From: a virus
Length of the DNA stretch: 49,142 nucleotides
Virus record (IMG/VR): IMGVR_UViG_3300007516_000030
Coordinates: 1 to 49,142 of that record
Direction: 5' to 3' (one strand)
The notes beneath the pieces were generated by a model. It had not been told where the DNA came from and made no database searches. It was given only the letters and a program-made list of their open reading frames with translations. This document shows positions 13,563 through 46,420 of the stretch, piece after piece; position 1 is the first letter of the stretch; the number at the start of each line of letters is the position of its first letter. A program made the translations under genes and the position numbers.

Positions 13563-16500
13563 ATGAACTGTATAAACACAAAACACCCAGAATTTGTAAA
13601 TTTAGTAGAAAACTCAGACATAGGACCATTTGTTTTAGAGTTTGTTGTATCTGCTTGGCAAAAAGATAACAATAGCAGTAATTTTCCAAATTTAGAAGAA
13701 GTTAAAATAGCGTATACTAAATGGCAAAATAAAAAACCAAATAAAGCAGAAGCCACTGATAAAGAAACTACTATAAACATATATGCAGGAACTAATGAAA
13801 ATGCTGAATTACAAGAATCTATAACTCCAGAACAAAACAAAAATACAGTAAAAACTTCTTCTATGCATCCTGAGTCTTTTAATAGTCAAATGACTATGGA
13901 GAATGGTGTATTTAATAAAGAAGAAATTAAAAGAAAATTACAAAAAGAAGGAAGTGAAATTACAAATTTCTTATTAGACTTGCTTTTTAAACACATTGGA
14001 GATGATTTAACAGTAGAAGTAGTAGATACTTTAATAGGCAATAATGGTAAATATAATTCTGAAAATAACACTATCGTTGTTAGCAAGCAAAGTCCTAATA
14101 TTGAAGGTTCTTTAGTTCATGAATTGTTGCATGCTGCTACTGTTAAAATGGTAACAGCTTATAGAATGGGTATTCTTAGTTCTTCAGAAACACAAGCAAT
14201 GGTTAATTTAGAAGCACTGCATAAAGTGTATAAAAGAAACTTTAGAAATGACGGTACTCAAGCCACAGAAAGCTTAGAAGAATTTATTACAGGTGTTTTT
14301 ACTAATGCTAAAGTTCAAAAAAATGCAGACAGTATAAAGTATAAAGGAGATAGAAAAACATTGCTTGAAAAGTTTTTTTTACAAATGATGTCTTTTTTTG
14401 GATTTAATTCTAATAGTAACACAGTATTGTCTAGTAGTACTTATAACATTATTTTTCTTTTAGATGGTATTAAAACTGATTTAAGTAATATACATTCTTT
14501 GGGAATATACGATGAATTAACTCAAGACCAACGCGATATTTTAACATTTCAATACGCTGGTAAAACTATTGAAGCAAAAGAGGCTGCTGAAAAATTATTA
14601 ATTGAAAGTGCTAAATACGAACTTTCAGATAATGGAAAAACCTATATAGATAATAAAGGTATAAAATATATAAGAGTAGGAGATTGGTATCAAAAAGAAG
14701 AGGGGTATTCTTTTACTGGAGACAAAGCTAATTATGAAAAAAATAGAACTTGGGGAAACCAAATAGATTTAATTTTAACAGGTATTTTGTTAAATAAATC
14801 TTTAGCAGACATATCTGAAGAAATAGATGATTTACTTATATCTATGCCTTTTGTAGAAGATTCTTACAAATTAAATGGCGAAATATTGGCCGAAGTTTAT
14901 GATTATTTTAATAACTGGGTAACTACTAAAAAAGCAGAAGGGTATATTATACTTCCTCAAATAACAGTAGGAAATAAAAACCCTTTAAATGATGACGTTA
15001 AAAAATCTGTTGCAGGTACTTTAGATGTCATTTTAATAGACAAAATAGGTAAAGTAGATATTGTAGATTTAAAATCTAGTATTCATTCTGTATATGCTAG
15101 CAAATACAAACAAAATTATGGAGAAAGTAAATCCACTAGAGATAGGCATTCAATGCAATTAGGTGCTTATAAAGGAATATTATATTCTAAAAATATTGAA
15201 ATAGGACAAACTTTTATATTACCAGTCAAATTAAATCAAGCGGTAGATCCTTTAACTGGTGACAATATGGACGAAATAGAAGGAGTAGTATTTGAAGAAA
15301 TGATGCCTATTATTCCCAATAAAGACGCAATTAAAAGATTATCAAAAGATGGATTAGCTACTTCTTCTTATAACGAAAACAAAGGGTATGATAGTTTATT
15401 AGATTCTATAATGACACTATTAAAAGAAAAAATAATAGAATTAAAAAACAATGGAAATAAAACTTTTTATATTGAATCTTTGCAAGAAGAATTGTCAAAA
15501 AAAGAACCTATTTTAGCTATTGAGCATTTTATTAATGATACATATATTCAATATTATGGGCCAGATAATAAAAAGTTTTCTGGGTATTTAGAAAGAATGG
15601 TTTATATATCTAAAAATAGTAAATTAACCGAAGCTGAGAAGTTAGTACAATTAGAAGAAATACAAGATATTGTTTTAATGTATGAACGTACTTTAAAACA
15701 ATTGGAAATTGATTACAGCTATATGATTATAGATGGAAAAATAACTGCAAATGCTAAAGATTATTCAACCATAGATAATTTAAATAAATTAATAACTGAA
15801 TATCGCACTATAGGATTAAAACTTAATAGAATTCTTTCGCCAATTCAAGCTAAAATTTTAGCTGATTCTACTAGACAAGGTGTTGACCCAGCAATTAAAG
15901 AACAAATAACTAAAATGGAGTTAATATTAAAGCAATCAAAAGCAGCGCATGACAGTGCTATAAAAGAAGGCAAATTAGCTGTTATTTTAAATAGACAAAA
16001 AAGTAAAATAGAGGTATTACAAGAAAATATTTCTAGATTAAAAAATGCTTCTGCTTTGGGAGAAAAAGATTTTTTAAAAGATTTAAACGATGGAGCAAGA
16101 GAAGATATAAGTTTTGTTGAGTTTTGGTTTCGTCCTTTTATATCTAGTTCTAATAAAATAGTAGCAACAGTTGCAAGAAAAATAAAGTCTGAATTTGAAA
16201 AAGCCAGATTATCTTCTTGGAATGAGTCTTTAATATTTGCTGAAGCATTTGAAAGATATAAAAAAGCTAGTAATGACTCTCAAGATGATGTAGAAAAATT
16301 TAATAGAAGATTTTATAAAACTGTAAAAATTCCAAATGGAGAAAAGAGCGCAAAAGAAACTTATATACTTAACAGTGATATAAATTGGACTGCTTATCAA
16401 GATGCTTTAATAGAAGCACAACAGCAAACTAAAAATATGGATTTTAAACAAGCTCGTAAGCATATGAGTGAGTGGTATAAAATGAATACTAAAACTTTAC

Positions 16501-18485
16501 AAAAAGAAACTATTTATGCTACTAATCCTATAACAGGTGAAAAAACTGTTTATATTAAAGGTATGGATCAGTTAATTGAAGAAAAAAAGCAAAATTCAAC
16601 AGAAAAAGAATTTGATTATTGGTTGGCTAAGTCTAAAAATAATGGGGCTTTTTCTTTGCCTGCTGACGTTTATTCAAATGTTATGAATCTTAATGCAGCA
16701 GAACAAGAATACTATGATACTTTGTTGTATTATCTGTTTAGAGGTAATAATGAACTGCCTAATCAAGGCCTATTGTATAAAATGCAAATACCTTCCATAA
16801 CTAAAAATTCAAACGATAGGGTTAGGCGGAATGGAATTAAAAATTATTTTGAATACAATTATAGTAATTCTTATGAAGAGGTTGCTGAAGACATTGATAT
16901 ATACGGAGAAAAAAACTTTGCTATTCCTATTATGTATAGACAATCAATGCCTATTGCAGATGTATCTTTAGATTTAGGAGCTTCTATTATGAGATTTTTT
17001 GATGCTTCTGAAAAATACAAAATTAAAAAAGGAATGCTTTCATTATTAAAATCTGTACATAATAATGTTAAAGCTTCTAAACCAGGCATGTCTACTGAAA
17101 GAGGCCTAGTTAAAGACTGGATTGCTAAACAAGTCCAAGTAGATAAAACTCAAACTAAAAATAATGGTGGTTATATAGCAGATGCTATAGAACAAATGAT
17201 TAATATACATATTTATGGAAAAAATACTGAAAAAGCGCAATATGGAAAAATAGATGCTAACAAAGTAACTGACGCTGTAATGGGACTTCAATCTTTAACT
17301 ACTATTGCTGCTAATCCTTTACTATCTTTAGCTAACTCGTTAATGGGTAATGTATCTAATTTAATAGAAGCTGCTGCAGGTAAACATTTTACTATTAGTA
17401 ATTGGACTAAATCTTTAGCAATATATTTTTCTAGTGAAGTAGATTTTATGACTGATTTTAATAATCCTGTTAATAAAAGCAAAATGGGGCAATTATTAGA
17501 TGTTTATGATTCTATACAAGGAGATTTTTCTGATAGATTTGGTAGAAAAATGACTATGAGTGCAGCTAGAAAAGCTTTTTCTTCTGATACATTATTTTAT
17601 TTACAGCACAAAACTGAGCATCAAATTCAATCTACTGCTTTAATAGCAAAACTATTAAATACCAAAGTTACTATAAATGGAGTAGAATCCACATTATACG
17701 ATGCTTACGAATTAAAAAATGGAAAGCTAAGTATAAAAAATGGTACTATGCATAAAGGAATTGATATTTCTAATCAAGTAATGATTATCTCTGTACAAGA
17801 AGATATGCATTCTATTAATAAAGATTTACAAGGGGTGTATAACTCTTTTGATAAACCATTAGTAGAAAAATATTGGTGGGGAAGATTGTTAATGATGTAT
17901 CGTAAGTTTATTGTTCCTGGAGTTATTAGAAGATTTGGTAATATGCGAGTTGATATTGAATCAAACGAATTAAAAGAAGGTACTTACAAAACTTTTTTAA
18001 GATTATTTTTTAATGAGTTTAAAGAACTAGGAAAATTTATAACTCCAGGAATGGAGTCAGAAACCTTAACTCAACTTGAAAAAGAAAATGTTAGAAGAAC
18101 TTTAATGGATTTAGGTATAATGATAGTTTTAGTATTTTTATGTGCAATATTAAAAGCAGCAGCTGCCGGTGATGATGATGATGATTGGTTATATTGGGTT
18201 TATTATCCTGTATACAGACTAAGAGCAGAATTAATGTTTTTTATTAATCCTTTAGATGGCGCAAGAGTATTTAAAACTCCTACAATAGCGTATTCCTTAC
18301 TAGAAAAAATATTAAGAGTTTTTGCGCAATTATTTGACCCTTTTGAAGCTTTTCAAAGAGACCAAGGATTGGCTGAAAAGGGAGATTACAAACTTCCATA
18401 TAGAATGTTAAATGTTATAGGTGCAAACGGAAGAAGATTTGATCCAGAAGAAGCTTTAAAATTGCTAAAAATGCAAACAAATTAA
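13563..18485 (+). CDS. Large companion virion protein with zincin motif, PD-(D/E)XK-like motif and C-terminal membrane segment
   Basis: 1,640 residues, starting 4 nt after the RNA polymerase stop, so the two are probably co-translated. Residues 186-190 read HELLH within SLVHELLHAA, a zinc metalloprotease motif. Residues 488-532 carry D488 (GTLDVIL), D502 and K504 (VDIVDLKSS), and Q532 with a following Tyr (MQLGAY). That order fits a RecB/Cas4-like PD-(D/E)XK nuclease. A helical region rich in Lys and Glu follows. Near residues 1516-1538 a hydrophobic segment (GIMIVLVFLCAIL) precedes an Asp run (GDDDDDW), consistent with one membrane span. Comparable large proteins sit beside the RNA polymerase in crAss-like phages and are thought to be packaged. 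Nuclease and protease activities are inferred from motifs only. Confidence 0.75.
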   Translation: MNCINTKHPEFVNLVENSDIGPFVLEFVVSAWQKDNNSSNFPNLEEVKIAYTKWQNKKPNKAEATDKETTINIYAGTNENAELQESITPEQNKNTVKTSSMHPESFNSQMTMENGVFNKEEIKRKLQKEGSEITNFLLDLLFKHIGDDLTVEVVDTLIGNNGKYNSENNTIVVSKQSPNIEGSLVHELLHAATVKMVTAYRMGILSSSETQAMVNLEALHKVYKRNFRNDGTQATESLEEFITGVFTNAKVQKNADSIKYKGDRKTLLEKFFLQMMSFFGFNSNSNTVLSSSTYNIIFLLDGIKTDLSNIHSLGIYDELTQDQRDILTFQYAGKTIEAKEAAEKLLIESAKYELSDNGKTYIDNKGIKYIRVGDWYQKEEGYSFTGDKANYEKNRTWGNQIDLILTGILLNKSLADISEEIDDLLISMPFVEDSYKLNGEILAEVYDYFNNWVTTKKAEGYIILPQITVGNKNPLNDDVKKSVAGTLDVILIDKIGKVDIVDLKSSIHSVYASKYKQNYGESKSTRDRHSMQLGAYKGILYSKNIEIGQTFILPVKLNQAVDPLTGDNMDEIEGVVFEEMMPIIPNKDAIKRLSKDGLATSSYNENKGYDSLLDSIMTLLKEKIIELKNNGNKTFYIESLQEELSKKEPILAIEHFINDTYIQYYGPDNKKFSGYLERMVYISKNSKLTEAEKLVQLEEIQDIVLMYERTLKQLEIDYSYMIIDGKITANAKDYSTIDNLNKLITEYRTIGLKLNRILSPIQAKILADSTRQGVDPAIKEQITKMELILKQSKAAHDSAIKEGKLAVILNRQKSKIEVLQENISRLKNASALGEKDFLKDLNDGAREDISFVEFWFRPFISSSNKIVATVARKIKSEFEKARLSSWNESLIFAEAFERYKKASNDSQDDVEKFNRRFYKTVKIPNGEKSAKETYILNSDINWTAYQDALIEAQQQTKNMDFKQARKHMSEWYKMNTKTLQKETIYATNPITGEKTVYIKGMDQLIEEKKQNSTEKEFDYWLAKSKNNGAFSLPADVYSNVMNLNAAEQEYYDTLLYYLFRGNNELPNQGLLYKMQIPSITKNSNDRVRRNGIKNYFEYNYSNSYEEVAEDIDIYGEKNFAIPIMYRQSMPIADVSLDLGASIMRFFDASEKYKIKKGMLSLLKSVHNNVKASKPGMSTERGLVKDWIAKQVQVDKTQTKNNGGYIADAIEQMINIHIYGKNTEKAQYGKIDANKVTDAVMGLQSLTTIAANPLLSLANSLMGNVSNLIEAAAGKHFTISNWTKSLAIYFSSEVDFMTDFNNPVNKSKMGQLLDVYDSIQGDFSDRFGRKMTMSAARKAFSSDTLFYLQHKTEHQIQSTALIAKLLNTKVTINGVESTLYDAYELKNGKLSIKNGTMHKGIDISNQVMIISVQEDMHSINKDLQGVYNSFDKPLVEKYWWGRLLMMYRKFIVPGVIRRFGNMRVDIESNELKEGTYKTFLRLFFNEFKELGKFITPGMESETLTQLEKENVRRTLMDLGIMIVLVFLCAILKAAAAGDDDDDWLYWVYYPVYRLRAELMFFINPLDGARVFKTPTIAYSLLEKILRVFAQLFDPFEAFQRDQGLAEKGDYKLPYRMLNVIGANGRRFDPEEALKLLKMQTN

Positions 18486-26654: not shown

Positions 26655-27087
26655 TAAATATGTTATTAACCTCTTCTTCTATTTTTTTCAATTGTTCTTC
26701 ACTGATTATTTCTTCATATTTGTGAAATTTAGCTAAAATCTTAATAATATCATCAAATTGGAAAGTAACCAAATGATTTTCTTTTTTGTATCCATCTAGT
26801 TTGTTAAATACTACTTTAATAAATTTGTGTTCAGGAGCATTGGGAGGGAAATTTAATTTTAAATTCTCTTCCATATTCTTAAACTCTTTATCTGGTTTTA
26901 TTCTGCTTGCTTGATATCCACTTTTAGCTTGTAATAAATAAGGGATTCCCCACAAATCAAATCCACTGTCATCGTATAATCTTGATGCCTGTCTACTTGT
27001 TTTAGTAAAGGAGAATCCCATAGCTCTATATATTTGGGCTAAAAACCTTTCATATGTATTGCCTTTTACTTTGTTTTTGTGTGCCAT
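26644..27087 (-). CDS. Holliday junction resolvase-like nuclease (Hjc-type PD-(D/E)XK)
   Basis: 147 residues. The motif order KGNTYERFLAQIYRAMGF (8-25, E13), then SGFDLWG (D44), then LLQAKSG (Q53, K55), matches archaeal Hjc and phage resolvases: a Glu, an Asp and a [E/Q]xK on a short beta-hairpin core. The Q in place of the more usual E before K55 is seen in some nuclease families and needs testing. Resolvases of this type cut branched DNA during packaging or repair. The C-terminal ~40 residues are a charged helix. The gene overlaps its neighbours slightly on both sides (TAATG with the amidoligase gene). Confidence 0.7.
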   Translation of the reverse strand: MAHKNKVKGNTYERFLAQIYRAMGFSFTKTSRQASRLYDDSGFDLWGIPYLLQAKSGYQASRIKPDKEFKNMEENLKLNFPPNAPEHKFIKVVFNKLDGYKKENHLVTFQFDDIIKILAKFHKYEEIISEEQLKKIEEEVNNIFNGA

Positions 27088-28568
27088 TATAAAAATAATT
27101 CTCTAAATGCATTTTCTTCATATTTGAATTGTTTATCATTTCTTAAAAATGAATCATCAGCGTAATTTCCATTCACAAACAGCTGCATAAAACTATTTGT
27201 TCGGTAGTTAATATAATCAATTAAAAAATTAGAAACTTTTTTACCGTAATCAGATTCTTCAAATACTGAAAATATATCAGTAAACATTATTTTTGAATCT
27301 TCTTTTAGTATTTTATCTGTATTTTTTTTACTATATTTAATTAGCGCTGAACAGATTAACAACCACAAAACTATTTTTTGGTAGTTCAAGGTTGGTTCAT
27401 GTAATCTAAATTCAATTGTTTTTCCGTTAGACATAAAAGGTAACATATTTACCCAAAAATATCTGCTTTTGTTATTCCATTTATTTCCTCCTACATCTTG
27501 TCCAATAGGGTTTACAAAGTCTAGTATTTTATTATACTTTTCTTCTTCTGTTCCTGCAGAGGATAAATATAAGCCTCTAAGAGGTTTACAATGGTCTTTG
27601 GCTTGACCATTTGCCTGCTTTTTAGATGCAAAATAAGTTTCATCTCTTTTATAAGGAGGGACAAAATCAAATATTTCTTGTTGGACTCTATAACATAACC
27701 TGTAAAAAGCTATTATTTCTTTTTTAGTTAAATTAAAATTACCAATATGTACATGTAAAGAGCAAAATTTGTCTATTTCGCAGTTTTTAATGGCCACATT
27801 ACCCATTTGTTGAATGGCTTTAATGCCTATTTCATTTACAAAAGGTACGCTTACATATTCATGTCCTGCAATTGAACCATCTCTTAGTGGTAAAAATCCA
27901 GTTTCCCATATATACTTATCTGGTAAAATTCCCGAAGTAGTTTCTAATTCTAAACCAAAAGAATAAGGAGCAATTAAATTATAGACTTTTTTTTGATTTT
28001 CAGTAACTTTATCTGTTAAAGAAGTTTGTACAGATTCTATTATTTTTTTAATTAACTGTTTGTTGTGATCTGCCAATGAATAAGGATAACCATAAGTATT
28101 TATAAATTCTATTTCTGTTTTAAATAGAAAAATAAATTCAGAATTAGATAAATTTTCTTTTATAAGGTCTGTACTTGCATAATCATTAAAAAATTTTCCA
28201 AAAATATAATTAGAACCAATTAATTCAGCTACATCTGAATTTATAACTGGTAAAAAAACAATATTATCTTTATAATTTTTTATAGTTATAAATCCTTTTA
28301 CATTTTCAATTTCACTTTCTTTAATAAATATTCTAGTAGCATAAAGTGGACTAGGTTCAAAATACCCTGTTTTTATTTTTTTATCTTTAAATGAAACAAT
28401 TCCTTCAGAAAGTGTAGCCAGTTCTTTTGCTTTTATGTGAATATAACTTCCTGTTGAGTAATTTAAAACTAATTCAGGGGAATTTTCTTCATACCATTCC
28501 CCTTTTCCTTTTGCGTATTTTATTGTATTATAAGTTGAATTACTTATAAATATTTTTTTATTTTTCAT
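27087..28568 (-). CDS. Amidoligase (GCS-like COOH-NH2 ligase, Amidoligase_2 type)
   Basis: 493 residues. The N-terminal ~195 residues are of unknown fold. The catalytic half begins at SFGLELET (203-210), followed by RDGS (229-232), GHEYVS (235-240) and CSLHVHIGN (269-277). This Glu-rich, HxH metal pattern defines the amidoligase superfamily related to gamma-glutamylcysteine synthetase and glutamine synthetase, as described by Iyer and colleagues in phage and bacterial clusters. Such enzymes use ATP to join a carboxylate to an amine. It is the last gene of a run that also contains a class II amidotransferase, GGCT-like protein, second amidoligase, ATP-grasp ligase and class I amidotransferase. 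The substrates are unknown. Confidence 0.82.
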   Translation of the reverse strand: MKNKKIFISNSTYNTIKYAKGKGEWYEENSPELVLNYSTGSYIHIKAKELATLSEGIVSFKDKKIKTGYFEPSPLYATRIFIKESEIENVKGFITIKNYKDNIVFLPVINSDVAELIGSNYIFGKFFNDYASTDLIKENLSNSEFIFLFKTEIEFINTYGYPYSLADHNKQLIKKIIESVQTSLTDKVTENQKKVYNLIAPYSFGLELETTSGILPDKYIWETGFLPLRDGSIAGHEYVSVPFVNEIGIKAIQQMGNVAIKNCEIDKFCSLHVHIGNFNLTKKEIIAFYRLCYRVQQEIFDFVPPYKRDETYFASKKQANGQAKDHCKPLRGLYLSSAGTEEEKYNKILDFVNPIGQDVGGNKWNNKSRYFWVNMLPFMSNGKTIEFRLHEPTLNYQKIVLWLLICSALIKYSKKNTDKILKEDSKIMFTDIFSVFEESDYGKKVSNFLIDYINYRTNSFMQLFVNGNYADDSFLRNDKQFKYEENAFRELFL

Positions 28569-30271
28569 TATATTATTTCCTCTATAAATTCGTAAGTATT
28601 AAAAGCAACTATTGCTGTGCCAAGTTTGTTATAATTTAAAATTCCACTTTCATTTAAGTCTGTTCCAGGACTATAAGTTGTGTGTAATTCTGTAATAATT
28701 TGTAAAGCAGAATCAACTTCTGTATTAAATTCTTCGCTTAGTTGATCTGAATAAGCCTGCTCTTGCGCTTTTTTTTCTTCTTCTTCTTTGCTAAGCTTGT
28801 TAGTTATTTTTAATTTTTGTCTTTCTAGTATTAAAATATCAGATTTTTTAATTTCTTCTTTTTGTAAACAAGTCAAAGCAACAACCATTCCTTCATCTCC
28901 AGAAAAAGATAATTCAACAATATTGCATTGAATTTCATCTTCTAATAATTCTCCATCTGAAGAATAAATATTTAAATTGTCAGAAGAAAGATAATATTGG
29001 TCAAAAAAACAAGCTAAAATATCATCAGAAGTATTGAAAAACTCTTTTTTGTCGTTGTAAATATCTATAAATTTAATCAAATCTCCCCAATAAGTAGAAA
29101 TAAGATTGCCATTATAAAAAGCAAAGTATTTATCACCATAGTCAGGTTTGACCCATCCTTCAATATTCCAAGAGGCTAGTTCTGATAATGATGAAAATCT
29201 ATATGCTTCTAAAGTAGCTAAATCTATATCAAAAAATCCTGTCATTTTTTTTCCTGCAAGCTTATATTTTAAATTATCAATGTAAATTCTATCTTTACCA
29301 GGGTCTTTAAAAACTTGAATCTGATTTGAAAACATGTTAAAATACTGCTCTTTTTTAAGTATTTTTTTTTGTTTTCTAGATAACGTAGACTTGTTTTTAA
29401 TTATTTCAATATTTTTTTTATCTGAAGAATAATGATTATTAACAATTGTACTTTTTGCTCTATCTTCCCAAGCTTGCCTAAAATCTTCTTCGTCTTCGTA
29501 ATACGATCTTTTTTGATATCCAACTAAACTTAAGCTTTTTACTTTAATGGTTTTTACTAATTTTTGCGAATTAATAAATTGCCCATTTTGCACAGTAATT
29601 AATTCATTTTCTGGTACTTCTCCTATAATTAAATTTGGATTTTCTATTTTTAAAATATTAAAAGGCTCTATCATAGACGAAAAATAAATAAAATTATTTA
29701 AATCTTGCATAAAAAATAAAGGTCTTTCTTCTATTTTATATTGACTTGCGCCTTTAAAAATAAACAATTCATTAATATTTTTAGGATTATACCACATCAA
29801 CGCTGCAGATCCTTCATATGATTTTAGCATTTCTAAATAAGTTTTTGCATTTAAAGATAACAAATAAAGAAATTTTTCTGAATCTGTTTCCATTGCATCT
29901 AACTTATTTTTATCTAAATTATATTTTTTTTCTATTAAAATACCATATAATTCATCAATGTTGCTTATAGTGCCGTTATGAACACCAATTAATTTTGTAT
30001 CAATATCAAAAGGATGAGTATTTTCAATGGTTTTTTTCCCTACTGATGCTTTTCTAGCATGCATAATAATAGTGTTATTTTTACCAGTAAATTCTAAATT
30101 GTTTTTTTGTAAATAATCTTTAAATTCATTTGGCCATATACTTTTATATATTTTTCCATTAGTACTATAACCTATTCCTTGACCACCTCTACTGTCATTA
30201 AACAACGCCATTAATTTTAACCAAAGTTTATTTGGTTTTTCTTTTCCACAATATCCTATTATTCCACACAT
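28568..30271 (-). CDS. Class II glutamine amidotransferase (Ntn hydrolase) with unknown C-terminal region
   Basis: 567 residues. The N-terminal ~200 residues are a class II amidotransferase domain with a complete site: C2 directly after the initiator Met (MCGIIGY), R73 in HARKAS (71-76), NTHPF (84-88), the oxyanion HNG (98-100) and D130 in ETDSE. The domain releases ammonia from glutamine or acts as an N-terminal nucleophile amidase. The remaining ~360 residues include a Lys/Glu-rich helical stretch (about 475-500) and match no synthase domain that I recognise; there are no PurF, GlmS or AsnB motifs. It shares a base with the following amidoligase gene and lies 1 nt after the GGCT-like gene, so it belongs to the amide-chemistry set. 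Confidence 0.85.
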   Translation of the reverse strand: MCGIIGYCGKEKPNKLWLKLMALFNDSRGGQGIGYSTNGKIYKSIWPNEFKDYLQKNNLEFTGKNNTIIMHARKASVGKKTIENTHPFDIDTKLIGVHNGTISNIDELYGILIEKKYNLDKNKLDAMETDSEKFLYLLSLNAKTYLEMLKSYEGSAALMWYNPKNINELFIFKGASQYKIEERPLFFMQDLNNFIYFSSMIEPFNILKIENPNLIIGEVPENELITVQNGQFINSQKLVKTIKVKSLSLVGYQKRSYYEDEEDFRQAWEDRAKSTIVNNHYSSDKKNIEIIKNKSTLSRKQKKILKKEQYFNMFSNQIQVFKDPGKDRIYIDNLKYKLAGKKMTGFFDIDLATLEAYRFSSLSELASWNIEGWVKPDYGDKYFAFYNGNLISTYWGDLIKFIDIYNDKKEFFNTSDDILACFFDQYYLSSDNLNIYSSDGELLEDEIQCNIVELSFSGDEGMVVALTCLQKEEIKKSDILILERQKLKITNKLSKEEEEKKAQEQAYSDQLSEEFNTEVDSALQIITELHTTYSPGTDLNESGILNYNKLGTAIVAFNTYEFIEEII

Positions 30272-30272
30272 A

Positions 30273-30638
30273 TTATCTTGTTTTCCAATTACCTGATTTT
30301 ACTAATAAGCTATTATTAATGTTACCATTATAAACATAAAGTTTTGCTACTCCAAAAGCAGTTAAAATATTTTCAATATAGTAATTTGCTCCTAATTCCA
30401 TTTTATCAATTCCTTCTCCAATATTATAATCTGTTACTTTAAATAAATCTACTTCTAAAGTTCTTGTTTTATCTTTAGTTTTTTTAATACCAGGATATGA
30501 CCCCAAAGAATATAAATTATATCCAGTCAGTATTAAAGTATCTAAAAACTCTAAACCACTTTCAAAGTGCTTATAGTTATATTCTCCTTTTCTTAAAGAG
30601 CCATAAACTAAGATTAAATCGTCATTTTTTTTATTCAT
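30273..30638 (-). CDS. Gamma-glutamylcyclotransferase-like protein (GGCT/AIG2 fold)
   Basis: 121 residues. The motif VYGSLRKGEYNY (11-22) is the substrate loop of the GGCT/AIG2 fold. E81 in IDKMELGANYY occupies the usual catalytic glutamate position. Family members release 5-oxoproline from gamma-glutamyl amines or act on related amide bonds. Its length equals a single GGCT domain. It lies 2 nt after one amidoligase-like gene and 1 nt before the class II amidotransferase. This supports chemistry on gamma-glutamyl intermediates, though the phage substrate is unknown. Confidence 0.82.
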   Translation of the reverse strand: MNKKNDDLILVYGSLRKGEYNYKHFESGLEFLDTLILTGYNLYSLGSYPGIKKTKDKTRTLEVDLFKVTDYNIGEGIDKMELGANYYIENILTAFGVAKLYVYNGNINNSLLVKSGNWKTR

Positions 30639-30640
30639 TT

Positions 30641-31450
30641 TTAATTGTTTATTGTTACTAAATTAGGCAATTTAATGTTGTATTTGTTAATTAATTTTTC
30701 AGCCAATTGTTTGTTAGACGTATTTATACATTCTTGTATTTCTTCTCTATCTGGAAAATCAAAAGTTAAATTGTTGTTTGCAAATTCAAACATTTTGTGT
30801 ACTTGATTAAATACCCATTTAATTGTTTTTTCATCTGTTAACCAAAAATTAGAAAGAGTTCTATATTCAAAACCATATGGTTTAAATCTACAACAACCAG
30901 CTTTACCATACATAGTTCTTCTTTTAGTATCTTCATCCAGTAAAACAGAAGGAACACCTAAAAAATAATCCATTAATCTAATATAAAATTCACTATTATC
31001 CATTTCAGGGTTGGGGTATCCTACATGAATATGTCCTCCACAACTCCTTAAGCCTTCTTCTGGATCTGGTTTTTCATTTTCTTCTTGAAGCCAGGCTGAA
31101 AAATCAGGTTCACAACCAAATTCTTTTGCTTTTTCACCCTGTAATTTTTCTTTTATAAAGAATTTAGAAGGGCTTACATCTATAAATATATAATCAGGAG
31201 TATTTTTTTCAATGTAATTAAACATTTTTTTATGAGCATTAACAAAATCATCTGCTGTTTTAACAGCGGGGATATTGTATTCTACCATAACATTGTCACA
31301 CAAAATCATATAACCGCCTTTTAAATCTGTAGGATCTTCTTTACTACCTTTAAAGTATTCTTCTGAAGGAATACCAACGCCGTTTTCATTTATTAAAAAT
31401 AATTCAGGATCAGACCCAATTGTTATTTCGTTTTGATTTATTTTTTCCAT
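30641..31450 (-). CDS. phiEco32-like amidoligase, COOH-NH2 ligase type 2
   Basis: 269 residues. Motifs GSDPELFL (12-19), CDNVMVEYNI (51-60), FGCEPDFSAW (111-120) and GGHIHVGY (138-145) are those of the phiEco32-like COOH-NH2 ligase type 2 family. The Asp/Glu pairs and HxH would bind Mg-ATP in a glutamine-synthetase-like fold. The family is proposed to form amide or peptide bonds on a small molecule or protein. The length agrees with the phage family. It lies 26 nt after the ATP-grasp ligase gene and directly before the GGCT-like gene. This is a second, distinct amidoligase next to the Amidoligase_2-type enzyme. Confidence 0.88.
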   Translation of the reverse strand: MEKINQNEITIGSDPELFLINENGVGIPSEEYFKGSKEDPTDLKGGYMILCDNVMVEYNIPAVKTADDFVNAHKKMFNYIEKNTPDYIFIDVSPSKFFIKEKLQGEKAKEFGCEPDFSAWLQEENEKPDPEEGLRSCGGHIHVGYPNPEMDNSEFYIRLMDYFLGVPSVLLDEDTKRRTMYGKAGCCRFKPYGFEYRTLSNFWLTDEKTIKWVFNQVHKMFEFANNNLTFDFPDREEIQECINTSNKQLAEKLINKYNIKLPNLVTINN

Positions 31451-31475
31451 GTTTTGTTATAAATTTTTTAAATTA

Positions 31476-32489
31476 TTAATTGTTTTTTAATTCTTCGTCT
31501 TTTAACTGGTAATTTTTCCAAATTAAAGAACTACCTTTTTCAAATCCGTCAGTTACCCAATGCTCTCTTTTTATTGTATTTTTTATTTTGTCTCCTCTAA
31601 ATAACCAATCAAAATACATTGCCCATCTTCCTGCAACGTATTCAGAGGTATTTAAAGTAGGAGCGGTGTTTACTTCTAATGCGTAAGCTTCTCCATCTTT
31701 GTACATTACATCTACACCTCCAAAATCTAATTCTACAGCAGCTATGGCTTTTAAAGCTACGTCAAGCACACATTTTAAATTCTGTTCGTCTATAGTAGTC
31801 CATTTAACGTAATCAAAAGGATCTGTATCGTTTTGAGCTCTGTTCCAAGCAATATTATTTTCTTTTGGCTTGGATTTCTCCATTACAGCAATTACTTTAT
31901 TATGTCCCGCATGTATTCTAAATTCCCTAGTTTTATCAATAAATTGAGAATAGTAAAATTTTTTATCATTATGATGCGCAATAAATGCTGCAATAGAATC
32001 TAGTACAATAAAATTTCTGCCTTTGCTATGTTCAAAAGGTCTTGCAATAATAGGAAGGTCTGTTGTTAGAATGTTGAAAAGAGTTACTAATTTAGGACAA
32101 TTTACATTGTTTTTAATAAATAATTCTCTAGAACGTAGTTTGTTAGTAGCATTTTCTAAACCAACAATTTTATTATAAACTATAGAATTTTCCATTTTAA
32201 TGTTTTCCCTGGTGCCCCACCTAATTAAAATAGAATTTTTTAAGGCTATATTATCAGCTTTATACTCAAATAAATATTTTTTATTTTCTAAATTAACAGC
32301 CAGTTTATCTCTATTTTCAAAAACTCTGTAATATTGAGGAACAGTTTTTAATCCAAGTTTTGATTTTTTTATTTTAAAAGGCATTTGTCTTCTTTGTACT
32401 AAAACACATTGAGCTGTTCCTTTTGTATGGACTAGTTTTGTAGAAGGTCTTCCATGTTTACCTGTTAATACTATATTTTTAAAATTCAT
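31476..32489 (-). CDS. ATP-grasp ligase
   Basis: 337 residues. ATP-grasp features in order: LPIIARPFEHSKGRNF (145-160, nucleotide-binding basic strand and Gly loop), REFRIHAG (188-195), ELDFGGVDVMY (253-263), and ALEVNTAPTLN (270-280) with the metal-binding E-x-N (E272, N274). The N-terminal ~110 residues form a preATP-like region. RimK-, D-Ala-D-Ala-ligase- and cyanophycin-synthetase-type relatives join a carboxylate to an amine through an acyl phosphate. In phiEco32-like clusters an ATP-grasp enzyme accompanies amidoligases and amidotransferases. It lies between the class I amidotransferase and the type 2 amidoligase genes. Confidence 0.85.
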   Translation of the reverse strand: MNFKNIVLTGKHGRPSTKLVHTKGTAQCVLVQRRQMPFKIKKSKLGLKTVPQYYRVFENRDKLAVNLENKKYLFEYKADNIALKNSILIRWGTRENIKMENSIVYNKIVGLENATNKLRSRELFIKNNVNCPKLVTLFNILTTDLPIIARPFEHSKGRNFIVLDSIAAFIAHHNDKKFYYSQFIDKTREFRIHAGHNKVIAVMEKSKPKENNIAWNRAQNDTDPFDYVKWTTIDEQNLKCVLDVALKAIAAVELDFGGVDVMYKDGEAYALEVNTAPTLNTSEYVAGRWAMYFDWLFRGDKIKNTIKREHWVTDGFEKGSSLIWKNYQLKDEELKNN

Positions 32490-32545
32490 TTTTTTTATAT
32501 TTATTGTCTTTTATAGGCATTGGCCTAATAATCAATTTTACTTGT

Positions 32546-33283
32546 TTACTTTTCTACTTTGCGTATATACAATACGCACGTTTCTGGTTCTATATGAGGT
32601 ACAGAGGTTTTAAAAGAAAGGTCAGCACATTCTTTAGAAAACATTCCTTTATCTTCCATAAAATCTACTAATAAATTTTGTAAATACAAAACTGTTTGGT
32701 GTTGTTCTTCTCCATATAAAAATTGAAACTCAGGATGAGATTGAATAGCTAAAGCATTTGTTTTTTTAAAAAACACTATCTCAGGATCACTTTCTACTTT
32801 TTTTATTTTAGTGTTGTTATAATGATAATTATTACATAATTGTTTTTCAGCTTCTCCTATAACTAAATAATCTTCTTTAGGCATTTCAAATGGATACATC
32901 ATTTGGTGATGCGTAGACGTTACTGTTAGTATATTGTTGTCTATTGTTTTTATTTCGTGCGAATTAGGATGATTCATATCTTGAACTAATTTTCCACCAG
33001 AACCAGCACAAAGTAATTGTGCACCTCTACAAATACCAATTAATTTTTTATTTTGTGCCAAAGCAGTTCCTAAAACTAAAAATTCTTTTGCATCTCTAGT
33101 TAAATCACTGTAAGTTCTTTTATATTTTGGATGACCATAATAAATAGGATCTACATCAGATCCACCAGTAAACATAACTAAATCAGCTTCTTTTAAATTA
33201 TTAGCAAGGCCCACTCCTAAACTTAAAATCCAATTTGCGTATCCTATAGATCCACCTACTATATATATTTTTTTATTTTCCAT
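32546..33283 (-). CDS. Class I glutamine amidotransferase-like protein (peptidase C26 / PuuD-like), copy 1
   Basis: 245 residues. FTGGSDVDP (38-46), the nucleophile elbow GICRGAQLL with C85, TSTHHQMM (123-130) and IQSHPEF with H183 and E185 complete a Cys-His-Glu triad. The STHHQ motif and the C-R-G elbow are typical of gamma-glutamyl hydrolases such as PuuD rather than of synthase-linked amidotransferases. The likely reaction is cleavage of a gamma-glutamyl amide or release of ammonia from glutamine. It is the first gene of the contiguous amide-chemistry run. A paralogue lies at 45677-46420. Confidence 0.85.
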   Translation of the reverse strand: MENKKIYIVGGSIGYANWILSLGVGLANNLKEADLVMFTGGSDVDPIYYGHPKYKRTYSDLTRDAKEFLVLGTALAQNKKLIGICRGAQLLCAGSGGKLVQDMNHPNSHEIKTIDNNILTVTSTHHQMMYPFEMPKEDYLVIGEAEKQLCNNYHYNNTKIKKVESDPEIVFFKKTNALAIQSHPEFQFLYGEEQHQTVLYLQNLLVDFMEDKGMFSKECADLSFKTSVPHIEPETCVLYIRKVEK

Positions 33284-33298
33284 TTTTTTAATTTTTGT

Positions 33299-34057
33299 TT
33301 AAAATATTTGATTAGTCCAGACAATTTGAAATTCTGGGCCATTGTTTTCTTTAATTATTTTGTTTGCTTTGCTAAAATTAGATTTACCAAACCAATTATT
33401 TCCTCCTAAAAAGGGGTCTCCTGCTTCTAATATATAGTGCTTATTTAAATCAATAAGAGATTTGTATTTTTGCCCAACAGAACCCCATAACATAAAAATT
33501 ATACCTGAATTATTGTTATTTATAACAGAAATAGTTTCAATTATAAAGTCTGTCCAAAGATTTTTATGAGCAGCCGAAAAATTTAATTCGCACGTAAGTT
33601 CAGAATTTAATAATAACACTCCTTGTAACGCTAAATCAGTTAAATTTGCATCTCTTCCAGGAAAAGCATCTTCTCCATACAAATCTAAATCAATTTCTTT
33701 GATAATATTACTAGTGGCTATTGGAATATCCATGCTTGTTGGATTTAAACTATTGTAACTATAAGCTAATCCATCGCAAATTATTTCTCCTTTATAAGCT
33801 ATGTCATATGGAGTATTTCCTATTATTACTATTTTTAAATATTCCCAAGGAGTCAATTTAAAGCAATTAAATAAATTATTAGTGTGTGGTAATATTTGTT
33901 TTTTTTGTTGAGCTTTAGTTTTTAAAAAATTTTTAATTTCTTGAAATTCTTTACTCCACAAAAAAGATTTTAATTTATTATACCATCCTAATCCTAATTT
34001 ATCAATTAAATTTTCTTCTCTTTTTTTGTTAAATTCTATGTAATTATATGTAATCAT
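33299..34057 (-). CDS. Uracil-DNA glycosylase homologue with catalytic residues replaced
   Basis: 252 residues from the ATG at 34057, which overlaps the upstream TAA by one base. The UNG framework is clear: KLTPWEYLKIVIIGNTPYD (67-85), GLAYSYNS, a GRDANL turn, QGVLLLNSELT (145-155), FMLWGSVGQ and NNWFGKSNFSKAN. However, the catalytic motif GQDPYH reads GNTPYD, so the water-activating Asp is Thr82 and the following His is Asp85. In the HPSPLS loop the sequence is EAGDPFLGG, so the catalytic His is missing. The uracil-recognising Asn (N151 in LLLN) and the pocket Tyr (Y84) remain. It may bind uracil or DNA without cutting, for example as a replication or protective factor (inference). Confidence 0.82.
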   Translation of the reverse strand: MITYNYIEFNKKREENLIDKLGLGWYNKLKSFLWSKEFQEIKNFLKTKAQQKKQILPHTNNLFNCFKLTPWEYLKIVIIGNTPYDIAYKGEIICDGLAYSYNSLNPTSMDIPIATSNIIKEIDLDLYGEDAFPGRDANLTDLALQGVLLLNSELTCELNFSAAHKNLWTDFIIETISVINNNNSGIIFMLWGSVGQKYKSLIDLNKHYILEAGDPFLGGNNWFGKSNFSKANKIIKENNGPEFQIVWTNQIF

Positions 34058-34536
34058 TACCAATTGTTTTGTTTTCTAAATTCTTCTAATTCTTCTTTGT
34101 TATTAATATTTAATGTTAATAACAAATCAGGCCAATTGTAATTATCTTTTCCTTTTTTGGAGTCATAGAAGTCTTTTTTTTGGGCAAATGGACCTTCTTC
34201 AGTAAAAGTTATTCTGATTTTTTGCATTTGTTCGCAATGCCACATTCTAAAATACATTCTTTGGTCCTTATTTTCTTTATAATATAATTTCACTTTAAAT
34301 AATATTCTAAAAAGTTTTTCAGCTGTGCAATAAGGATAGTATGTATTTATTATTTCTAATAAATCATAAAAACTCCTAAAAGAATTATCCCTACATTGCA
34401 ATTCAGTACATTCTGGGTTTTTATAAGTTTTTTGTGCTTTTGCTCTTTTTGGACCGTAAACATCAGTATGGCAATTATAAAGTAATTTTATAAATTCGCT
34501 TATAAGTTTTGGTGGTTTAAATTTTACATAAATCAT
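34057..34536 (-). CDS. Hypothetical protein in replication block
   Basis: 159 residues, not recognised. It starts with MIYVKFKPPKLISEF, then has a Cys/Arg-rich stretch (NPECTELQCRDNSFRSF), a helical aromatic block (YDLLEIINTYYPYCTAEKLF) and YFRMWHCEQMQKIRITF. The four or five cysteines are not arranged as an obvious zinc ribbon. It overlaps the glycosylase-like gene by one base and the upstream gene by four (ATGA type), so expression is coupled. Its place between primase and glycosylase-like genes suggests replication, with no direct evidence. Confidence 0.7.
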   Translation of the reverse strand: MIYVKFKPPKLISEFIKLLYNCHTDVYGPKRAKAQKTYKNPECTELQCRDNSFRSFYDLLEIINTYYPYCTAEKLFRILFKVKLYYKENKDQRMYFRMWHCEQMQKIRITFTEEGPFAQKKDFYDSKKGKDNYNWPDLLLTLNINNKEELEEFRKQNNW

Positions 34537-34913
34537 TTTTTTTTATTTTTATAATTATACCATTTAACAAATTTACAACACACATCAAATAAAGCGTCAC
34601 TTTCTACACTTATTTCTACTCTTTCATTGCTTATTAAAAGTTTAACAAAGTTTTTACAAATTAATATTGAATGTTCGCCATCATCTATATTATTAATAGT
34701 ATCAATTACAGGCATAATCCATCCATATTCTTTGTGAAATAGTAAAAACTCACTATTATTTTTAGAAATATAGGCTTTGTCTGATTGAATGTTCATTTTT
34801 TTTATATTCCACCAAGAATCGTGAGGGCCATCTGGAAAATGTTGTTCCTCCATAAATTTTGCTAATAAATAGCTGTTAATTATTCTTTTGTTTTTGTTTT
34901 TTTCTATAATCAT
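34533..34913 (-). CDS. Hypothetical protein downstream of primase
   Basis: 126 residues, not recognised. The N-terminus is very basic (MIIEKNKNKRIINSY), followed by a helix (LAKFMEEQHFPDG), and the protein ends with VKWYNYKNKKK. No catalytic motif, membrane span or cysteine cluster is visible. The ATG overlaps the primase stop by four bases and the stop overlaps the next ATG by four, showing tight coupling on both sides. A small DNA-associated role is possible but unsupported. Confidence 0.65.
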   Translation of the reverse strand: MIIEKNKNKRIINSYLLAKFMEEQHFPDGPHDSWWNIKKMNIQSDKAYISKNNSEFLLFHKEYGWIMPVIDTINNIDDGEHSILICKNFVKLLISNERVEISVESDALFDVCCKFVKWYNYKNKKK

Positions 34914-35914
34914 GTTAAAAATTTTTTAAAAGCGTTTTGCCCATATTTAGTTACATATTCAAAAGGATCTTTTACCCCTAATTCAATTGGTATTACTTCG
35001 TATGGTAATCCATGCATAAATTCATATTCTTTCATTGCAGTTATTCCTGACTCGTCATTATCAAACATTACAACAATATTATCAAATCTTTTAAATAAAG
35101 AATTAATAGTATCTTCAGTTAATATTATATTTTCTGATTGAGGAGCTATTGCAGGTATGCCTAATTCATAAAATACTACTACATCTTTCATAGATTTAGT
35201 AATATATAAAATTTTTCCACTTTCTGGAATAAAATCTATTCCTTGTATTAAATCACCTGTGCAATTATTAATCCATTTAAATTTTTTGTTTTTTTCTTTT
35301 GGCCTATATCCTTTAATTTTGTTATTAATTGACCAAGAATAAATTGGATTAATTTCAGAATATGTCCACAATTTAATAAAATTATAATACAATGTTTTTA
35401 CAGAAAAAATTCCAAATTTATTTAAAGTGGTTTTACTTATTCCGCCTTGTTGCCAATAATTTAAATCAGAAATAGTAAAATTTTGAATTATAATCTGTAT
35501 AAAAGCATTTTTTTTATTTTCTTTATTTTGATAATTTGTATATTCTATTTTTTTTTTAATTGTTTTAGAATTTGTAAAAGTATGGCTTATTCCTAAATGC
35601 ATACTTTCATTAATTAAAAGCAAACTTTCTAAAAAAGTACTATTTTCCATTATTTGTACAAATTTAAAAACATCTCCTGCGCCATTTTTTGTAATGTTTC
35701 CAAAATCATTCCATAATAAAATGCCTGCTTTATTCCAATAAATACCAAAAGAAGGCGTTTTATCTTTTCTACCAGGTAAAGGAGAATTTATCAAAGTTCC
35801 TATTTCGTAATCTATTCCTAGAAAATGTCTATATATTTCAGCTTCCGTAGTTTTTTTTAATATATTTTCTTTATTAAGTCCTACTATTTTGCCTCTTGTT
35901 TCATATTGCATCAT
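34910..35914 (-). CDS. DnaG-like primase with TOPRIM domain, zinc finger absent
   Basis: 334 residues. NSPLPGRKDKTPSFGIYW (43-60) and WNDFG..GAGDVFKFV (68-86) correspond to the CHC2-type N-terminal fold of DnaG, but the zinc-binding Cys/His residues are replaced (SPLPGR instead of CPFHxE). The C-terminal TOPRIM domain has ILYITKSMKDVV, where Lys takes the place of the conserved Glu, and VVMFDNDESG, which supplies the DxDxxG metal site. The enzyme should make RNA primers for the phage fork. Two other genes sit between the primase and the SSB candidate region. The Glu-to-Lys change is also, to my knowledge, present in other phage TOPRIM proteins, but its effect on catalysis is unclear. Confidence 0.82.
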   Translation of the reverse strand: MMQYETRGKIVGLNKENILKKTTEAEIYRHFLGIDYEIGTLINSPLPGRKDKTPSFGIYWNKAGILLWNDFGNITKNGAGDVFKFVQIMENSTFLESLLLINESMHLGISHTFTNSKTIKKKIEYTNYQNKENKKNAFIQIIIQNFTISDLNYWQQGGISKTTLNKFGIFSVKTLYYNFIKLWTYSEINPIYSWSINNKIKGYRPKEKNKKFKWINNCTGDLIQGIDFIPESGKILYITKSMKDVVVFYELGIPAIAPQSENIILTEDTINSLFKRFDNIVVMFDNDESGITAMKEYEFMHGLPYEVIPIELGVKDPFEYVTKYGQNAFKKFLT

Positions 35915-45403: not shown

Positions 45404-45680
45404 CAATTGAAGTTTTTAATTTATTAGCTAATTCGTAATTTTCTTTTTTTAAAGCAGCATCAAGTTTTATTTTTAAATTATCAAAAGAATTTACATTAGT
45501 AGTTTCTTTTAAATATTGCTTAAAAAATAAATCTTTATTATGTGAAATAAATTTTAATTTGGTTACTTTTCCTTTTCTAGTGTAATAAGTAGAAAATTCT
45601 ACAGCCCCTTTTTTACTTAATTCTTCCATATCTGTATTTTTAAAAATATTTAAAAACAAAGTCTTAAGATAAACTATCAT
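45372..45680 (-). CDS. Small protein with UVR-motif-like helical hairpin
   Basis: 102 residues. The C-terminal segment LDAALKKENYELANKLKTSID (about 71-91, read in parts) follows the UVR motif pattern (acidic-basic helix, then NYELA, then K/R-L) found in UvrB, UvrC and McsA. There it forms a protein-protein helical hairpin. The N-terminal part is strand-like (VEFSTYYTRKGKVTKLKFI). The ATG overlaps the stop of the amidotransferase gene (ATGA), supporting the chosen start. A role as an adaptor is possible; function unknown. Confidence 0.55.
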   Translation of the reverse strand: MIVYLKTLFLNIFKNTDMEELSKKGAVEFSTYYTRKGKVTKLKFISHNKDLFFKQYLKETTNVNSFDNLKIKLDAALKKENYELANKLKTSIDGFKSTNNHL

Positions 45681-46420
45681 ACAGTTTCTGGAATTTTTAT
45701 TTTTTTAAAACTATTTTCAATTTCAAACAAACTTTTGTAATAATTTTCATCTAATAGCTTTTCAATCATAGCAATAGATAATTCACAATCTCCTAATTCT
45801 TCTGGATGCCATTGAACTGTAAAAGCAGGGTAATCTATGTAACCCAGTGCTTCATTGTGCTTAGTATCGTTTTCTTCTCCTTTATAAACAGCTAAACTAA
45901 TTGCATTTTCAGGAATTATATCAATGGCTTGGTGATGAATAGAATTTACTTTGTAATTAAAAGAATAAGCTGATTCTAATCCAAATTTTTTCAATGAAAT
46001 TAATGAAATATCCAAATTATGCACTTTTTTTGATCTATTATTTTCGTTAGTTTCATGCCACATATTTTGAATTAAGTGCCCATTGTTAATTGCTGCAAAA
46101 CTTTGATGTCCTCTGCATATTCCAAATATAGGTACTTTTTTTTTCATATATTTAGGCAACAAAACCATGTCAAACCATTCTCTAAATGGACAAGGTTTGC
46201 TAATATACATAGATATACTTTCTTCGCTAGATAAATATCTACAAACATCTATGTCAGGTCCACCAGGTAATACTAATAAGTCAATGTCTCTAGTAGTTTT
46301 TTCATTTGGATTTATAATATGTACATCACCAAAATGTTGAAAAAATTCTACATAGGCAAGTGTAACACCGAATCCTGTTCCCATTACCCAGCCTGCTATT
46401 CCTATTTTTTTTCTATTCAT
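45677..46420 (-). CDS. Class I glutamine amidotransferase-like protein (peptidase C26 / PuuD-like), copy 2
   Basis: 247 residues. LVLPGGPDIDV (49-59), the nucleophile elbow FGICRGHQSFA with C102, NSIHHQAID (159-167) and FTVQWHPEE with H205 and E207 give a complete Cys-His-Glu triad. Like copy 1 it has the CRG elbow and the [ST]xHHQ motif of gamma-glutamyl hydrolases. The overall sequence is divergent, so it is an old paralogue or a separate acquisition. It lies ~12 kb upstream of the amide-chemistry run, on the same strand and possibly the same transcript. It is coupled to the next gene (ATGA). Confidence 0.85.
   Translation of the reverse strand: MNRKKIGIAGWVMGTGFGVTLAYVEFFQHFGDVHIINPNEKTTRDIDLLVLPGGPDIDVCRYLSSEESISMYISKPCPFREWFDMVLLPKYMKKKVPIFGICRGHQSFAAINNGHLIQNMWHETNENNRSKKVHNLDISLISLKKFGLESAYSFNYKVNSIHHQAIDIIPENAISLAVYKGEENDTKHNEALGYIDYPAFTVQWHPEELGDCELSIAMIEKLLDENYYKSLFEIENSFKKIKIPETV

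Follow-up and report, generated by a model that had tools for sequence, protein, structure and literature searches.

According to a 2023 paper citing Iyer et al. 2009 (PMC10580990), the amidoligase and glutamine amidotransferase (GATase) of phage phiEco32 were suggested to modify the cell wall, preventing superinfection. No experiment on this prediction was found in our literature search. In the phiEco32-like phage SU10, the homologous ATP-grasp enzyme, amidotransferase and GGCT are early gene products and were detected by mass spectrometry of concentrated phage (PMC4281155). Here we describe a gene set of this type in the IMG/VR virus record IMGVR_UViG_3300007516_000030, a stretch of 49,142 bases that is called the window below. 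The module consists of six open reading frames (ORFs) at positions 27087-33283, all on the minus strand. It is real, intact and conserved, and it belongs to a kind of module that is already known and biochemically uncharacterised. The initial annotation of this DNA proposed a candidate undescribed system; this claim was not upheld, because such sets occur widely, their prediction dates from 2009, and they have been annotated in sequenced phages, among them phi14:2, a cultured crAss-like phage. The interest is in which product the module makes, a question testable in cultured relatives, rather than in the system being new. We hold, with modest confidence, that the locus is a crAss-like version of the phiEco32-type amidoligase module, encoding a short gamma-glutamyl amide pathway that would act early and on a host-side target.

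In the order of transcription, the six genes are as follows:

32546..33283, minus strand, Peptidase_C26 (PuuD/SpuA-like) gamma-glutamyl hydrolase, subfamily 1 (PF07722, 8.4e-18)
31476..32489, minus strand, RimK-like ATP-grasp carboxylate-amine ligase (PF08443 RimK, 3.4e-5; phrog_2599, 4.8e-22)
30641..31450, minus strand, phiEco32-type COOH-NH2 ligase type 2 (PF14395, 3.3e-14; phrog_3815, 1.1e-71)
30273..30638, minus strand, GGCT/GGACT-like gamma-glutamylamine cyclotransferase (PF06094 GGACT, 8.9e-13; YtfP structure 1xhs, 1.2e-10)
28568..30271, minus strand, class II (Ntn) glutamine amidotransferase, with the domain in residues 1-238 followed by an unassigned C-terminal half (PF13522 GATase_6, 2.8e-12; phrog_7218, 3e-36)
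27087..28568, minus strand, Amidoligase_2 of the glutamine synthetase/gamma-glutamylcysteine ligase fold (PF12224, 2.3e-9; phrog_2443, 2e-19)

The Pfam assignments of all six proteins, and of a second C26 protein encoded elsewhere in the window, exceed the Pfam cut-off. The genes are adjacent, co-oriented and close to replication genes (the primase is at 34910-35914), and neighbouring genes are spaced by -1 to 56 nt. A conserved carrier peptide inside the module was ruled out, since gaps of at most 56 nt leave no space for it.

The expectation of six packed genes on the same strand with intact catalytic motifs was borne out by the ORFs, the Pfam and PHROG matches, and the conserved residues. 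In the first C26 protein, C85, H183 and E185 are conserved across relatives. The ATP-grasp active site is intact (K117, E189, K205, D260, E272 and N274), and K117, E189, R191, K205, D260 and E272 are invariant (89/89). The residues typical of the PF14395 family are conserved across relatives of the ligase, the GGCT protein has the YGSL motif and a catalytic E81 that is invariant (42/42), and the amidotransferase retains C2, R73, N99, G100 and D130. The active site of the PF12224 protein (E207, E209, E237, H272, H274, R369, E386 and R388) is invariant as well.

Structural models agree with these assignments where they are informative. The first ~240 residues of the amidotransferase model match the fold of the GlmS glutaminase (1xff, 2.4e-13); the C-terminal half was modelled at low confidence, and the fold search matched nothing beyond the glutaminase domain, in agreement with the earlier description of this half as unknown. 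The PF12224 protein carries an N-terminal extension of ~190 aa, also modelled at low confidence; the top fold matches of the protein are glutamine synthetase, YbdK and glutamate-cysteine ligase, with weak E-values. A sequence search for solved structures returned none for the PF14395 and ATP-grasp proteins. Compared to contig L012, which is the closest IMG/VR relative and has identical gene order, the identity of the six proteins is 47-70%, and the ratio of nonsynonymous to synonymous differences (pN/pS) is 0.37-0.75, the value for the PF14395 ligase being 0.37. These values are consistent with purifying selection on all six genes, with the reservation that synonymous sites are close to saturation.

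Homologues of the PF14395 ligase were found in 312 GenBank phage records (Pseudomonas, Escherichia, Vibrio, Aeromonas, Proteus, Salmonella and other phages) and, using an alignment-based scan, at 518 IMG/VR loci; single-sequence scans of IMG/VR with the ligase or the amidotransferase found nothing. For the analysis of linkage we used 90 loci, chosen by the PF14395 ligase alone, namely the best 80 of the 518 IMG/VR loci and ten GenBank loci, and the partner genes were sought with profiles built for each partner. It should be noted that the 80 IMG/VR loci have the most window-like ligases, and rarer layouts are under-sampled. Of the 90 loci, 81 have the complete core of four enzymes, namely PF14395, PF12224, ATP-grasp and the class II amidotransferase, and the crAss-like phages phi14:2 and cr108_1 carry the set. 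Among the 42 loci flanked on either side by 7.5 kb or more, the amidotransferase and PF12224 were found in all 42, ATP-grasp in 39, C26 in 35 and GGCT in 23. In six complete or nearly complete carriers (CW02, VR7901, T2S1, tf, T2S2 and CVT22) the profiles match one cluster each, and in T7 there were zero matches to any module profile. Therefore, the module genes act together. A search for further genes constantly linked to the module gave replication-type genes and no extra biosynthetic partner. Matches in bacterial genomes have mostly phage-type layouts, with no bacterial pathway context. The module adjoins the primase/helicase in crAss-like, LUZ24-like and Zobellviridae phages, and in annotated complete records it is located within the early/replication block, not among structural genes. 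Conservation across very different tailed phages suggests that the module probably gives a real advantage.

Two layouts of the module can be distinguished. Layout A is found in the window, in phi14:2, cr108_1 and Lbo-JY46, and in many IMG/VR contigs; here a long PF12224 protein (median ~520 aa) comes after the amidotransferase, GGCT is usually present, and a protein of ~190 aa that we label H190 (phrog_4877/11055) is absent. In layout B (LUZ24-like, phiEco32/7-11-like and Zobellviridae phages) the PF12224 protein is shorter (median ~350 aa), and H190 separates it from PF14395. H190 beside PF12224 is absent in the window; it marks layout B only and is not required of the module overall. GGCT and H190 are anticorrelated (Fisher p of 2e-7 for all loci and 3e-4 for well-flanked loci), although these values overstate independence because the layouts cluster on a quick tree of the PF14395 ligase (4 changes, versus 30 when shuffled). 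Loci lacking H190 have PF12224 proteins that are longer by ~170 aa; hhalign gave no support for H190 as the counterpart of the PF12224 N-terminal extension, and no sequence relation was found. The possibility that H190 is a degenerate C26 was likewise given no support by hhalign.

Some accessory genes were observed at these loci. A second, short class II amidotransferase-like protein follows PF12224 in about ten layout A loci (L016:10126-10773, L017, L018, L027, L030, L035, L041-L043 and L062); the interpretation of these matches as split C-terminal halves was rejected, as they represent a separate Ntn protein starting with MCLII or MCIII. Genes for phosphoribosyl-pyrophosphate synthetase and nicotinate/nicotinamide phosphoribosyltransferase were observed upstream of the module, at a distance of a few kb, in Lbo-JY46 (L005), GAP52 (L008) and 7-11 (L009).

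The window has a seventh candidate member of the module, displaced from the six genes:

45677-46420, minus strand, second Peptidase_C26 hydrolase, subfamily 2 (PF07722, 3.2e-22)

Its C102, H205 and E207 are intact. The closest phage homologue (36% identity) is located in the Lbo-JY46 module immediately after the PF14395 ligase, and 11 other C26 genes are nearer to this protein than to the first C26 of the window. A subfamily 2 gene adjoins the first C26 in L084 and L085, and has no first C26 nearby in L049, L052 and L062. By sequence comparison, the second C26 is a distinct subfamily, found within or beside the module in other phages. The earlier proposal that this PuuD-like gene is a seventh member is plausible, because subfamily 2 relatives are located in or beside modules elsewhere, including Lbo-JY46.

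The carrier virus had been described as crAss-like, and the following features of the window are of relevance to this assignment and to the surroundings of the module:

33299..34063, minus strand, uracil-DNA-glycosylase-like (UDG-like) gene, outside the module (tblastn to phi14:2 UDG, 2e-16)
13563-18485, plus strand, giant ORF of 1640 aa, matching crAss RNA-polymerase-like proteins and Leptolyngbya phage Lbo-JY46
1376-13558, giant ORF of 4060 aa

The top matches of the window primase are crAss-like phages, and together with the RNA-polymerase-like matches they support the assignment of the predicted carrier to Crassvirales, in agreement with the earlier description. In three genomes, namely the window, phi14:2 and cr108_1, the module has a UDG-like gene as its neighbour and ribonucleotide reductase genes nearby. 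None of the PADLOC defence models was matched.

Enzymes of the three ligase families form amide bonds in an ATP-dependent manner, the class II domain uses glutamine, and C26 and GGCT enzymes cleave gamma-glutamyl-amine bonds. With the active sites intact, the view of the locus as a multi-enzyme amide/gamma-glutamyl module, in which three ligases are combined with three or four enzymes that cleave amides, is upheld. The individual reactions, the product and the target are inferred. The PF14395, PF12224 and RimK-like ATP-grasp enzymes would couple carboxylates, probably glutamate, to amines at the expense of ATP. The class II enzyme would either release ammonia from glutamine or serve as an Ntn amidohydrolase, and gamma-glutamyl groups would be removed by GGCT and both C26 hydrolases. 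Since C26 and GGCT would take gamma-glutamyl off, gamma-glutamate may be a temporary protecting or carrier group. A pairing of the PF14395 ligase with gamma-glutamyl cleavage is suggested by reduced sets that keep only the PF14395 ligase, C26 and GGCT (L101:5174-10066; L102:953-4571, a short contig; and L108:4642-9723), with the amidotransferase, PF12224 and ATP-grasp absent from all three; thus, the product of the PF14395 ligase may be the substrate of C26 and GGCT. The gene position beside the primase/helicase and the early class of the SU10 enzymes point to action early in infection, and the enzymes would be produced together with the replication genes. The product would most likely be directed at a host-side component (an envelope component, host protein or metabolite) rather than at virion DNA or the capsid.

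Several observations weigh against this pathway. Our literature search gave no measured activity, substrate or product for any module member. Class II GATase domains perform either ammonia transfer or plain hydrolysis, and the order of reactions is thus a guess. Only about half of the loci yielded a GGCT, and no C26 was found near about one fifth of them, so the host may supply the cleavage steps, or these may differ. The host-side target is suggested mainly by gene position and the early class.

Among the other explanations, it is unlikely that amide-linked amino acids are attached to capsid or tail proteins of the virion. The detection of the SU10 ATP-grasp enzyme, amidotransferase and GGCT in concentrated phage would fit it; however, presence in such a stock does not show that these enzymes are parts of the virion, they are early gene products, and the module is placed apart from structural genes in the annotated complete records. 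A slightly smaller chance is given to auxiliary nitrogen metabolism, that is, the salvage of glutamine, gamma-glutamyl peptides or polyamines for nucleotide synthesis. The several glutaminase-type and gamma-glutamyl-cleaving enzymes and the nearby ribonucleotide reductase genes are in its favour, whereas three ATP-dependent ligases would spend ATP on building bonds, which is needless for salvage, and the ligases rank among the most constant parts of the module.

A separate observation was made in several Zobellviridae-like carriers. In each of the following genomes, at least six small proteins, many with genes lying between those of the ligases, share a C-terminal tail that is specific to the genome:

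CW02 (L112), tail LEENV
VR7901 (L113) and Klyazma (L116), tail LENK
T2S1 (L114), tail MENE
CVT22 (L119), tail LENE
metagenome-assembled (MAG) contig L100, tail KxDWL

In 300 random draws of tails from all loci the maximum was two similar neighbours, compared to five to eight in VR7901, CW02, L100, T2S1 and Klyazma. Many tails coincide with a Shine-Dalgarno sequence overlapping the next start codon, and tail sharing is partly due to this overlap. Synonymous changes, the case of L100, and tails that are kept without a coupled gene following suggest that there may be selection on the protein sequence of the tails as well.

These tails bear on protein tagging, to which we assign about the same low probability as to nitrogen salvage. 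The three ligases would put an amide-linked amino acid, peptide or amine on protein C-termini or side chains, the gamma-glutamyl hydrolases would trim or reverse the modification, and the small tailed phage proteins would be the substrates in Zobellviridae-like phages. RimK elongates a protein C-terminus, and the ATP-grasp enzyme of the module is RimK-like; the tails in six genomes would also fit. Conversely, tails were looked for in the window, tf, phi14:2 and cr108_1 and none were seen, and the Shine-Dalgarno overlap explains a part of the sharing.

Less probable still is a protective hypermodification of phage DNA bases or nucleotides, for which the position among replication genes and beside the UDG-like gene in three crAss-like genomes could be cited. 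The core four enzymes and GGCT are all present in phage tf, whose virion DNA is cut by RsaI, HpaI, EcoRV, SmaI and HaeIII (PMC3517423); bulk modification of bases at those sites is thus unlikely in tf. In addition, an inspection of the conserved neighbours, by eye only, revealed no recognisable base-modification gene. The earlier suggestion that the product could decorate capsid, DNA or a host molecule is therefore narrowed: the digests speak against bulk DNA in tf and the early-gene placement against the capsid, and the host side is favoured. Finally, a chance cluster of unrelated accessory genes, conceivable in dense, mosaic phage genomes, has a negligible probability and is refuted by the joint occurrence of the four core genes in 81 of 90 loci chosen for PF14395 alone, with none in T7.

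The preferred reading, an early gamma-glutamyl amide pathway with a host-side target, can be addressed in cultured carriers: phi14:2 on Cellulophaga baltica, tf and LUZ24-like phages on Pseudomonas, and phiEco32-like phages on E. coli. They make the question of the product, standing since 2009, directly testable.

We compared the window with the named systems that it resembles. The Puu pathway (PuuA/PuuD, through gamma-glutamyl-putrescine) shares the C26 hydrolase family and the idea of gamma-glutamyl protection; however, the window ligases belong to other families (PF14395, PF12224 and ATP-grasp). The two window C26 proteins score 18.3 and 32.8 bits against the PuuD equivalog (NCBIfam), the cut-off of which is 266, and among the six module genes there is no PuuA-type ligase, PuuB oxidase or PuuC dehydrogenase, the rest of the window not having been fully scanned. 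The chemistry of PuuA/PuuD type that had been proposed is thus consistent with the C26 and GGACT families, whereas the PuuD assignment itself is not reached. The butirosin side-chain route (BtrJ ATP-grasp and BtrG cyclotransferase) resembles the window in the combination of ATP-grasp and an AIG2-type cyclotransferase, and the cyclotransferase homologue of phage tf is annotated as BtrG-like; the window cluster differs in the absence of a carrier protein gene and in the additional ligases, amidotransferase and C26.

Phage loci are closer. Leptolyngbya phage Lbo-JY46 has homologues of both window C26 subfamilies and of the other five enzymes in a single run, and differs in a PF12224 protein only 28% identical to that of the window, a third C26-like gene, and adjoining genes of NAD-salvage type. 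Two members of Crassvirales, Steigviridae, were compared as well. In phi14:2, isolated on Cellulophaga baltica #14, GGCT, ATP-grasp, PF14395, amidotransferase and PF12224 are consecutive between the primase and UDG, with no C26 detected at the locus. In cr108_1, ATP-grasp (followed by two genes of no assigned function), C26, PF14395, amidotransferase, PF12224 and UDG are located downstream of the primase, with no GGCT detected at the locus. Compared to both, the window has the order C26, ATP-grasp, PF14395, GGCT, amidotransferase, PF12224, and two C26 genes. Compared to the phiEco32-type amidoligase module, the window differs in the crAss-like layout, with the amidotransferase before a long PF12224 protein that has an N-terminal extension, in having no H190 between PF14395 and PF12224, and in having two C26 subfamilies, one of them displaced. 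At the same time, the PF14395, PF12224, RimK-like ATP-grasp and class II amidotransferase enzymes of that module are all present in the window with intact sites, and many of its members have GGCT and C26, as does the window.

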